NCBI RefSeq assembly: GCF_003688415.1
Contig: NZ_REFJ01000003.1
Location: forward strand, 62,001-126,000
Source of the DNA: Umboniibacter marinipuniceus
GTDB taxonomy: Bacteria > Pseudomonadota > Gammaproteobacteria > Pseudomonadales > DSM-25080
DNA: 64,000 nucleotides
Reading direction: 5' to 3'
Shown here: positions 36,044-62,673 of the stretch, in pieces
Position numbering within the stretch: position 1 is the stretch's first letter
Layout: the number at the start of each line of letters is the position of its first letter
The notes under the pieces: model-generated
The model's input: the letters and a program-made list of their open reading frames with translations, nothing else
Databases searched by the model: none
Told to the model about the DNA's origin: nothing
Position numbers and translations under genes: made by a program

Positions 36044-36116
36044 TCAGCGCTATTTAGCCAAGGTTTACTACCGCTGATCTACAAACTATCGCGCTACGCA
36101 AAAAAACCTATTGATA

Positions 36117-36135
36117 ATGCGAACGATTCTCATTA
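36117..36135. promoter_or_regulatory. Predicted Fur box of bfd
   Basis: AATGCGAACGATTCTCATT is an 8-3-8 inverted repeat with one mismatch, close to the Fur consensus, and with GATAAT just upstream. It overlaps a plausible promoter: TTGATA at 36111-36116 and TAATGT at 36134-36139, 17 bases apart. Bfd is a known Fur target, expressed under iron limitation. Confidence 0.72.
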
Positions 36136-36165
36136 ATGTTATGAGCATCAACTGGAGCTTCTATT

Positions 36166-36369
36166 ATGTTTGTTTGCGTTTGCGCTGGAATTACACAACA
36201 ACAGATCAACAATGCCGTCACTCGAGGCGCAAGAACTGTAGATCAATTGCGCAGCCAGCTAAATGTAGCGAGTGGCTGCGGGATGTGTCTTGAAGACGTG
36301 ACTGAACAGCTAAGTCACCATTCTACCCATACCGCCGCTGAGTTTACTGACGCCGCAGCTAGCTGCTAA
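36166..36369 (+). CDS. bfd: Bacterioferritin-associated ferredoxin
   Basis: A 67-residue [2Fe-2S] protein. The four cluster ligands are Cys4, Cys6, Cys38 and Cys41 (MFVCVC and SGCGMC), the exact Bfd spacing. Bfd docks on bacterioferritin near the haem and passes electrons that reduce and release stored Fe3+. It is preceded by a Fur-like box and faces two bacterioferritin genes, so release (Bfd, low iron) and storage (Bfr) are encoded together. Its TAA stop falls in the first unit of a short tandem repeat. Confidence 0.93.
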   Translation: MFVCVCAGITQQQINNAVTRGARTVDQLRSQLNVASGCGMCLEDVTEQLSHHSTHTAAEFTDAAASC

Positions 36370-36391
36370 CTGCTAACTGCTAACTGCTAAC
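36364..36391. repeat. Four tandem copies of TGCTAAC
   Basis: Exact 7-bp units at 36364, 36371, 36378 and 36385. The first contains the bfd stop codon. The array fills most of the short gap between bfd and the convergent bacterioferritin stop at 36400. The stop in the first unit means copy-number change would not alter Bfd. Confidence 0.9.
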
Positions 36392-36399
36392 TGGCCATT

Positions 36400-36891
36400 C
36401 TACTCCGCTGCCGGTTTAGCCGTCATTTGAGATTGAATAAAGTTGGCTAGTCCAACCATTTTGATTAAGCGCAGTTGCTGTTCTAGCCAATACATATGGT
36501 CCATCTCGGTATCATCGAGTAACTTCACCAAGATCTCCCTAGTAACATAGTCCGCGGAAGTTTCACAAACACTAATAGCCTGCTTAAGCAACGCCGCAAC
36601 CTCTCGCTCAACCACTAGGTCAAACTCAAACATTTCTACAATTGTTGACCCAACTCGCGTTGGCGACGCTGAGTTCATATTGGGAGTCACCTCTAGAAAG
36701 AGCATTCGATCAATTAATGCCTGAGCGTGCTCGCCCTCTTCCTCTGACTCATGAAACATTCGCTCGGCAATAGCGTCTAAACCCCAATCCTTGAGGATAC
36801 TCGCATGCGCCAAATATTGATCGCGCGCCATGAGTTCATTGTTCAAAAGTAGCTGTAAATGCTCTACGACTTGAGTATTCGCTTTCATCAC
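36400..36891 (-). CDS. Bacterioferritin subunit with intact ferroxidase site, no haem Met
   Basis: A 163-residue four-helix ferritin-like subunit. All six ferroxidase ligands are present: Glu19, Glu52, His55, Glu95, Glu129 and His132 (E. coli Bfr: Glu18, Glu51, His54, Glu94, Glu127, His130). The haem-ligand position is Gly53 instead of Met52. It should oxidise Fe2+ but not bind haem on its own. Its start overlaps the stop of the second bacterioferritin gene by 4 bases, so the two are translationally coupled and probably co-assemble, as known for the two-subunit bacterioferritins of Neisseria and Magnetospirillum. Confidence 0.92.
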   Translation of the reverse strand: MMKANTQVVEHLQLLLNNELMARDQYLAHASILKDWGLDAIAERMFHESEEEGEHAQALIDRMLFLEVTPNMNSASPTRVGSTIVEMFEFDLVVEREVAALLKQAISVCETSADYVTREILVKLLDDTEMDHMYWLEQQLRLIKMVGLANFIQSQMTAKPAAE

Positions 36892-37361
36892 TCTGACTCC
36901 ATTTGCGCGGCGATATAGTTTTCGATCCCTGCATTGTCAATTTGCCAGTGCTGGGTTTCAATCCAATCAACAATGTCCTCCGCGGTACCTAAGAGATCCA
37001 CTAATAATGTTCGACTGATAAAATCTTTCTCCGCTTCACAGCATTTTATCCCATCGCGAAGTTGTTCCATGATCGGCTCAAGAACCCGCAAATCACCGTT
37101 AAAGATTTCCACAACACCCTCACCAATACGCAAACGATCAAGCGCTTGCATACCAGGCAGCGCCTCCAGCAACAGAATACGCTCAATCAACCTATCGGCA
37201 TCTTTCATTGCTCCAATAGAGACTTTGTACTCGTATTCATTAATTTCGCAAAGCCCCCAGTTTTTAGCGATTCGCGCGTGCAGAAAGCTTTGGTTTATCA
37301 ACGTGAGCTGCCCTTTTAGGGCGCTGTTAAGAGTGGATATAATTACTGGAGATGATTGCAT
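36888..37361 (-). CDS. Bacterioferritin subunit with haem Met, ferroxidase site lost
   Basis: A 157-residue bacterioferritin subunit that keeps the haem ligand Met52 (AMKDADRLIERILLLE). It has lost every ferroxidase ligand: Gln18 for Glu, Ala51 for Glu, Asp54 for His, Leu94 for Glu, Ala127 for Glu and Ile130 for His (E. coli numbering applies directly). It should supply the haem at the dimer interface, where Bfd docks, but not oxidise iron. First gene of a two-gene operon with the ferroxidase subunit. Confidence 0.92.
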   Translation of the reverse strand: MQSSPVIISTLNSALKGQLTLINQSFLHARIAKNWGLCEINEYEYKVSIGAMKDADRLIERILLLEALPGMQALDRLRIGEGVVEIFNGDLRVLEPIMEQLRDGIKCCEAEKDFISRTLLVDLLGTAEDIVDWIETQHWQIDNAGIENYIAAQMESE

Positions 37362-37660
37362 AGCTCTAGCTACCTCGCTTCAGGGTCGTTTTGTCTAGAT
37401 CATCTGACAAGGATCCATTATTTATAGTGATCGTTTCGGTAATGTGTCTTTCAGAGCGAAAGGTAAGCCGATGATCTCTGATCGCTGCAAAATTATAACG
37501 AAGACTTAAACTAGCCTAGCGCCAATTCCGCCTTTCATCAACCAAACGCAACACGCGCTCATTGTTAAGTTATGCAGAAATCGCTCAACCGATTAAAGCG
37601 CGAATGCTTTTCTGGTCTAAGATATCGACACTTCAGTTTTGTTCAACTGATCCGGCAGAT
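37362..37660. other. Intergenic region upstream of the bacterioferritin operon
   Basis: This 299-base stretch lies between the bacterioferritin operon start and the end of the diguanylate cyclase gene. It should hold the bacterioferritin promoter; TATAAATAATGG on the minus strand near 37420-37431 is a possible -10 region. I see no gene, Fur box or clear terminator in it. Confidence 0.4.
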
Positions 37661-61969: not shown

Positions 61970-62673
61970 GTTCTTCCCCGGTGATTCAGCTAGAACAGAT
62001 AGTAAAAAGCTATGAGCTGGCGGGTGATCGACTCGATGTATTAAAGGGCGTCAACCTAAAAATTGATAGCAACGAATACGTCGCCCTCACCGGTCCTTCC
62101 GGTTCCGGAAAGTCTACCTTAATGAATATTTTGGGGTGCCTTGACTCACCGTCCGAGGGCAACTATTTGCTTGCTGGTGATGATGTAAGTGGTTTAACCG
62201 AAGACGAGCTTGCTGCCGCAAGAAACCAACGTATCGGTTTTATTTTTCAAAGCTTCAACTTGCTACCGCGGATGAGCGCACTTGATAACGTTGCTCAACC
62301 GCTTGTTTTTCGCGGATTGGGACGAAAGGACCGGCTAAAGATTGCCCAAGCCGCACTTGAGCGCGTAGGACTAGGTGATCGGGTAGATCATCTACCTAAC
62401 CAGCTCTCCGGAGGCCAACGACAGCGAGTTGCCGTGGCACGAGCCTTAGCGGGCGAACCGAGTATCCTGTTAGCGGATGAGCCTACTGGTAACCTAGACT
62501 CAAAAACGACCGAAAGTATCATGGCACTCTTCGACGAACTTCATAACCAAGGTCAAACCATTATCATCGTGACCCACGAGCCGGAGATTGCCGCCCACTG
62601 TCGCAGAGAAATCGTGCTTCGTGACGGCGAGATCGTTAAGGACGTAACCAAGGAGCCTGGCCATGTTCTTTGA
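61966..62673 (+). CDS. MacB/LolD-type ABC transporter ATPase
   Basis: A 235-residue ABC ATPase: Walker [10 protein letters not shown] (about 40), the Q-loop [10 protein letters not shown], signature [15 protein letters not shown], Walker [13 protein letters not shown] and the H-loop THE. Sequence type and neighbours place it with the MacB/LolD/FtsE group, which drives mechanotransmission rather than transport through the membrane. It overlaps the adaptor gene by 4 bases and the permease gene by 11. Confidence 0.92.

Follow-up and report, generated by a model that had tools for sequence, protein, structure and literature searches.

The division of bacterioferritin (Bfr) functions between two subunits is already published and is established for the class. 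The solved SoBfr12 of Shewanella oneidensis (9IIG) is a 12+12 cage of homodimers, six that bind haem and six free of it, with no heterodimers and in a fixed C2 pattern (PMC12120770). Iron storage in S. oneidensis requires both subunits, as neither alone stored iron, and the haem aids oxidation as well as release; the authors propose that hetero-bacterioferritins gain faster oxidation and pay for it with slower release (PMC12120770). Further, bfd is often found near bfr genes, either head-on or co-oriented (PMC12120770). The Bfr1 and Bfr2 pair of Magnetospirillum gryphiswaldense MSR-1 is reported to be the first mixed 24-mer, its functions split, that was proven directly; the subunit ratio was estimated to be 14:10, and Bfr2 assembled when alone and Bfr1 alone did so poorly (PMC6529640). 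In the mixed cage of Pseudomonas aeruginosa, made of FtnA and BfrB, the haem is bis-Met, needing Met52 from both sides (PMC8945002). Two further structures are, by their titles, a mixed Ftn/Bfr cage from Acinetobacter baumannii (9bts) and a solved hetero-oligomeric bacterioferritin (9H1U).

The tandem bfr pair of Umboniibacter marinipuniceus

We analysed a stretch of 64,000 nucleotides of U. marinipuniceus (positions 62,001 to 126,000 of contig NZ_REFJ01000003.1), hereafter the window, which holds the following features.

36888..37361, minus strand: haem-type bacterioferritin subunit gene (Bfr2-like), 157 aa; Met52 present, 0/6 ferroxidase ligands
36400..36888, minus strand: haem-free ferroxidase bacterioferritin subunit gene (Bfr1-like), 162 aa from ATG; Gly52 and 6/6 ligands, with a GTG at 36891 as alternative start
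36886..36890, minus strand: TGATG junction of the two bfr genes, the haem-type stop ending on the A with which the downstream ATG begins
36166..36369, plus strand: bfd, bacterioferritin-associated [2Fe-2S] ferredoxin (CxC...CxxC), 67 aa; convergent with the bfr pair
36113..36134, plus strand: Fur-box-like site preceding bfd, 14/19 to consensus over 36113-36131
36044..37660, no strand: whole module (bfd plus the bfr pair), flanked by genes for an FMO and a diguanylate cyclase; missing there in congener G002

By their open reading frames the bfr genes are adjacent and co-oriented on the minus strand with the haem-type gene upstream, and bfd lies 30 bases from the pair. Both bfr products score above the 125.55-bit cut-off of TIGR00754 (NCBIfam bacterioferritin), with 179.4 and 142.5 bits, and Bfd matches Pfam Fer2_BFD above cut-off. 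In the genome (2.69 Mb, 99.4% complete) PF00210 matches the two bfr genes and no third ferritin-domain protein, and PF04324 matches bfd alone. A preliminary description of the locus had the two genes overlapping by 4 bases. They do overlap, though by a single base: the haem-type TGA is at 36890-36888 and the downstream ATG at 36888-36886, and the protein read from this ATG (MKANTQ...) aligns with residue 1 of its relatives, while an overlap of 4 bases is obtained only if the downstream start is the GTG at 36891, one codon before the ATG. About five copies of a 7-base repeat (GCTAACT), a unit which could slip, occupy 36358-36393, where bfd and the bfr pair converge, and run across the bfd stop.

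Residue positions are given in E. coli Bfr numbering. Alignment to E. coli Bfr gives Q18, A51, D54, L94, A127 and I130 at the ligand positions of the upstream subunit, along with the haem ligand M52. In the downstream subunit E18, E51, H54, E94, E128 and H131 are all present and position 52 is Gly; its helix 4 is one residue longer, so that E128 and H131, its last two ligands, are numbered by its own sequence, and given this one-residue insertion the penultimate ligand was taken, in every haem-free subunit, to be the residue three positions ahead of the aligned His. Both sets of residues agree with those of the preliminary description. The pair thus shows the residue pattern of the tandem type, with Met52 in one subunit only, six of six ligands in the haem-free chain and none of six in the haem-type chain, and the 34% identity between the two subunits lies within the limit of at most 45% used for tandem hetero-bacterioferritins (PMC12120770). 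A haem ligand and a ferroxidase centre on the same chain, as in the homo-bacterioferritins E. coli Bfr and P. aeruginosa BfrB, are not seen here, nor are the bfr genes dispersed on the chromosome as in the FtnA/BfrB type.

The window shares with SoBfr12 the tandem genes, the haem-type gene in first place and the ferroxidase site on the haem-free subunit (PMC12120770). In M. gryphiswaldense, Bfr2 likewise binds haem without a working ferroxidase centre and Bfr1 does the reverse, but there the haem-free gene comes first and the genes are 11 nt apart; the changes named for Bfr2 include E18Q, H54A and H131M (PMC6529640). FtnA and BfrB also bring haem-free and haem-type subunits into one cage, to which Bfd binds only at the haem-type dimers, but unlike in the window their genes are dispersed and both subunits have working ferroxidase centres (PMC8945002). 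The loss is far less complete in SoBfr2, which has lost E94 (Val) and has Asp51 and Lys46 yet still has Glu18 and His54 as well as the Glu and His of helix 4, against 0/6 in the haem subunit of the window. Haem-binding subunits are described as resembling homo-bacterioferritins in their other three ferritin motifs (PMC12120770), which is untrue for the clade to which the window belongs.

The best solved match of the upstream subunit is 9iig_M (SoBfr2), with 147.9 bits over residues 1-155 and 48% identity over 153 columns, and that of the downstream subunit is 9iig_A (SoBfr1), on which its AlphaFold model superposes with a TM of 0.94 and an rmsd of 0.8 A. Each subunit thus has the matching chain of SoBfr12 as its best solved relative, which speaks for the tandem type. 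For the haem-type subunit AlphaFold, working from an 11-sequence alignment, gave a model with its helices opened (pTM 0.60), which has a TM of 0.46-0.50 and an rmsd of about 16 A to the 50 Bfr and ferritin chains listed. We take this as a failure due to the shallow alignment, and the model rather than the protein to be wrong, because of the 48% identity and the 147.9-bit sequence match to 9iig_M. A viral scan found no relative.

The bfd gene and the empty site in a congener

The Fur box claimed for the region before bfd was found at 36113-36131, 34 bases ahead of the bfd start, where 14 of 19 bases agree with what we take to be the Fur consensus, a score tied for best in the 64 kb. It should be noted that when the window was shuffled by mononucleotides 20 times, and each shuffle scored on one strand, the maxima were 13-15; the score alone is not significant, and hence the weight of the site rests on its position before bfd. 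The inverted-repeat pattern for this site was composed after the site had been seen. In front of the bfr pair neither a Fur-like site (best 10/19) nor a promoter-like site was found. The site before bfd is consistent with production of Bfd when iron is scarce, and Fur would then repress bfd when iron is plentiful.

In the congener G002 (98% complete) the stop codons of the FMO and diguanylate cyclase genes are 9 bases apart (L174 9975-9989), whereas in the window bfd and both bfr genes fill a 1,617-base gap at the same junction. The flanking genes are 61-99% identical between the two and in the same order, and G002 has no match to bfd or to the haem-type subunit. This empty site is clean, with synteny on both sides, so that bfd and the two bfr genes must be gained or lost together, as a single module. 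Neither PF00210 nor PF04324 has a match in G001, another congener (87% complete). Elsewhere in G002 there is a distant ferritin-like protein (L175 1467-1946, minus strand). The GC content of the module is 0.453, compared with a mean of 0.497 for 1.6-kb stretches of the window (sd 0.017, minimum 0.448); the module includes non-coding DNA and its third-position GC is close to that of the neighbours, so composition gives no clear sign of a foreign origin.

Ligand loss and constraint in haem-type subunits

In the preliminary description the completeness of the ligand loss, next to a Fur-boxed bfd, was held to make this locus a good model, and an alignment of the pair across related genomes was proposed as a check. 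Our survey comprised 163 loci with 227 distinct Bfr proteins. The loci were picked by similarity to the haem subunit of the window or to a six-member total-loss profile, at most the best 30 loci per search and some of them repeated, with 40 lower-ranked regions added out of several hundred further matches, and partner genes beyond the fetched flank were scored as 'none'. Met52 was present in 143 subunits, 84 with an adjacent haem-free partner and 59 without. The paired subunits keep 0 (8 subunits), 1 (9), 2 (20), 3 (26), 4 (18) or 6 (3) ligands, and the unpaired ones 5 (7) or 6 (52). All six ligands are present in 83 of the 84 haem-free subunits, the remaining one being a cut ORF, and the haem-type gene comes first in 82 of the 84 pairs.

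Total loss as a feature of the window alone was consequently rejected, since 8 of the 84 sampled tandem haem-type subunits have 0/6 ligands, a figure which is not a natural frequency as the survey was ranked by similarity. Besides the window these are G387 (L005), four Oceanospirillum (L034, L035, L036 and L038), a Thiodiazotropha (L037) and G403 (L041). The losses form a graded series with total loss at its end, a state that recurs but is in the minority in the sample. A Bfd-like ORF lies within the fetched flank of four of the seven other total-loss pairs and near 38 of all 84 pairs, as judged by a motif search in short flanks. Among the unpaired subunits, the seven that keep five ligands (L064, L078, L088, L108, L120, L123 and L127) have Thr at 127, three before the helix-4 His. 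Three subunits (L056, L071 and L072) have Met52 and an adjacent haem-free partner yet keep all six ligands, and are placed among the homo-type bacterioferritins in the tree.

For ligand loss we used a tree of the 84 paired and 14 of the 59 unpaired subunits with E. coli Bfr, from which the six ligand columns had been removed. The window, G387 and Oceanospirillum cluster together with an SH-aLRT of 99, obtained by a quick method without bootstrap and with the ligand columns excluded, although the haem-type subunit of the window is on a long branch (0.83) and its placement is less sure. The total-loss state needs at least three changes on the tree, though the well-supported branches also allow one origin. 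Partner and loss were mapped on a tree of all 143 Met52 subunits and E. coli Bfr. In the raw split 81 of the 84 paired subunits are degraded (four ligands or fewer) versus 0 of the 59 unpaired. Repeated independent linkage of partner presence with ligand loss was nevertheless rejected, as the tree needs one change for loss and three for partner; the association comes down to one independent pair on well-supported branches and three on all branches. Ligand loss is essentially one old event followed by later erosion, and because it maps to a single change its association with the partner gene is not independent evidence. In the parts consulted of the literature on mixed cages (PMC12120770, PMC6529640, PMC8945002) we found no description of a haem-type subunit with 0/6 ligands, and a literature search found no paper combining bacterioferritin, Oceanospirillum and ferroxidase.

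Comparisons between four Oceanospirillum species gave a dN/dS of 0.02-0.09 for the total-loss gene in six of six cases, and of 0.04-0.10 for the haem-free gene in four of six, the other two being saturated; every finite dS is at least 1.26, which makes the ratios rough, and they cover the Oceanospirillum copies only, synonymous sites being saturated between these and the window copy. On these rough values the total-loss gene in Oceanospirillum is under purifying selection. The nine positions we take to line the haem pocket (L19, I22, N23, F26, Y45, I49, M52, K53 and D56) and the three presumed Bfd contacts (L68, E81 and E85) do not vary among the eight total-loss subunits. Among the 84 haem-free subunits M52 occurs in none and D23 in 83, while I22, N23, Y45, I49, K53, L68 and E81 are rare; L19, F26 and E85 are mostly shared with the haem type. 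By these residues, the haem-type subunit is constrained on its haem and Bfd sites and not on the di-iron site. Changes at the former di-iron site are not free either: E18Q is found in 8/8 total-loss subunits and A or S at 51 in 8/8. The replacements at 54 and 94 vary. Of the 85 positions invariant among its five nearest total-loss relatives the window keeps 74.

Further, Gln151, a residue of the four-fold pore, is replaced by Ala in six of six subunits of the window clade (the window, L005, L034, L035, L036 and L038), while among the other 78 paired haem-type subunits three differ from Gln151, one of them being Ala (L133). No description of total ligand loss coupled with Ala151 was found in the parts of the mixed-cage literature consulted. 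What is new here is a total-loss clade which also has Ala for Gln151, together with the empty site in the congener.

Proposed cage and alternative readings

We suggest, with a probability of about 0.86, that the pair is a tandem hetero-bacterioferritin forming a 24-mer of two kinds of homodimer, in which the downstream subunit oxidises Fe(II) and the upstream subunit holds haem, docks Bfd and releases iron. By analogy with the relatives, we infer the same cage with the same division of labour, the haem loading and the electron route, and a subunit ratio near 1:1. Entering Fe(II) would be oxidised at the di-iron centres of the downstream-subunit homodimers, and the iron core would grow in the cavity shared by both dimer kinds. 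Each upstream-subunit homodimer would carry one haem between its two Met52 and no di-iron centre. At low iron Bfd would be induced and dock on the haem-type dimers, where the haem could hand electrons inward to the core so that Fe(II) is released. Mammalian ferritin has no haem and no Bfd, and its L chain has no electron-entry role. The likeness drawn to it in the literature is that of its H and L chains, one with and one without a ferroxidase site (PMC12120770, PMC6529640, PMC8945002). A mixed 24-mer splitting iron oxidation from haem entry had been proposed in the preliminary description, with reference to a two-subunit bacterioferritin in Magnetospirillum, which is indeed published for M. 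gryphiswaldense, and M. gryphiswaldense Bfr12 and SoBfr12 lend support to the proposal (PMC6529640, PMC12120770). Its placing of the two functions on different chains holds as to the split, but the known cages indicate that these are most likely different homodimers (PMC12120770, PMC8945002). Two further points of that description, an obligate mixture and equal synthesis through the gene overlap, are conjectural here; M. gryphiswaldense Bfr2 did assemble by itself, and the ratio was estimated at 14:10 there (PMC6529640) and is 12:12 in S. oneidensis (PMC12120770).

A variant compatible with this division of labour is a mixed cage without fixed composition, where expression sets the ratio of homodimers and 12:12 is not obligate. 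Such behaviour is known, as the FtnA:BfrB ratio in P. aeruginosa shifts with oxygen (PMC8945002) and the M. gryphiswaldense estimate is 14:10 (PMC6529640), yet the overlap of the window genes would make separate expression unlikely, and in SoBfr12, to which the pair is closest among solved structures, the ratio is 12:12 and the C2 pattern fixed (PMC12120770); we therefore consider the variant unlikely. Heterodimers, with haem held by one Met52 or by none, would agree with the two-hybrid contact between Bfr1 and Bfr2 of M. gryphiswaldense, seen in one of two orientations and with the interface unspecified (PMC6529640), but none are present in SoBfr12 (PMC12120770), the mixed cage of P. aeruginosa has bis-Met haem spectra (PMC8945002), and the two subunit types show consistent differences in the residues surrounding the haem; such dimers are highly improbable here.

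Two separate homo-24-mers with different jobs would be in line with both window proteins being full-length bacterioferritins, with the homo-oligomers of some species (PMC8945002) and with the assembly of Bfr2 alone in M. gryphiswaldense (PMC6529640). Single subunits of S. oneidensis, however, stored no iron (PMC12120770), Bfr1 of M. gryphiswaldense assembled poorly by itself (PMC6529640), and a haem-type homo-cage without any ferroxidase ligand would have no enzymatic filling route, which leaves little room for this reading. Slightly less room still is left for the view that the haem-type gene is decaying and that the ligand loss is drift in a dying copy: the long branch and the variable replacements at 54 and 94 could be read that way, but the frame of 157 codons is intact, the 74 of 85 positions noted above are retained as are all haem and Bfd positions, dN/dS is low in Oceanospirillum, and the same E18Q recurs in 8/8.

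Concerning the mixed cage of two homodimer kinds, electrons can pass from haem to a ferroxidase centre in E. coli Bfr and reduce it (PMC10946800), and because of this we hypothesise that total loss may exist to remove a haem-to-ferroxidase short circuit from the haem-bearing chains. The aid given by haem to oxidation in S. oneidensis speaks against a simple insulation story for SoBfr12 (PMC12120770). As a stronger form, which we regard as tentative and rather doubtful, the haem subunit might be a pure electron-entry part, the removal of the di-iron site and the loss of Gln151 in the window, G387 and Oceanospirillum insulating the haem, abolishing haem-to-ferroxidase transfer and leaving two separate redox circuits.

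Haem subunits without any ferroxidase ligand offer a natural test, with no need for mutagenesis, of whether the haem-to-ferroxidase transfer shown in E. coli Bfr matters (PMC10946800). Such cages also bear on how iron enters and leaves when the two functions sit on separate dimers. Total loss is common to four named Oceanospirillum strains, and the graded losses can be used to follow a duplicated enzyme subunit as it loses its active site yet keeps the surface on which its partner docks.
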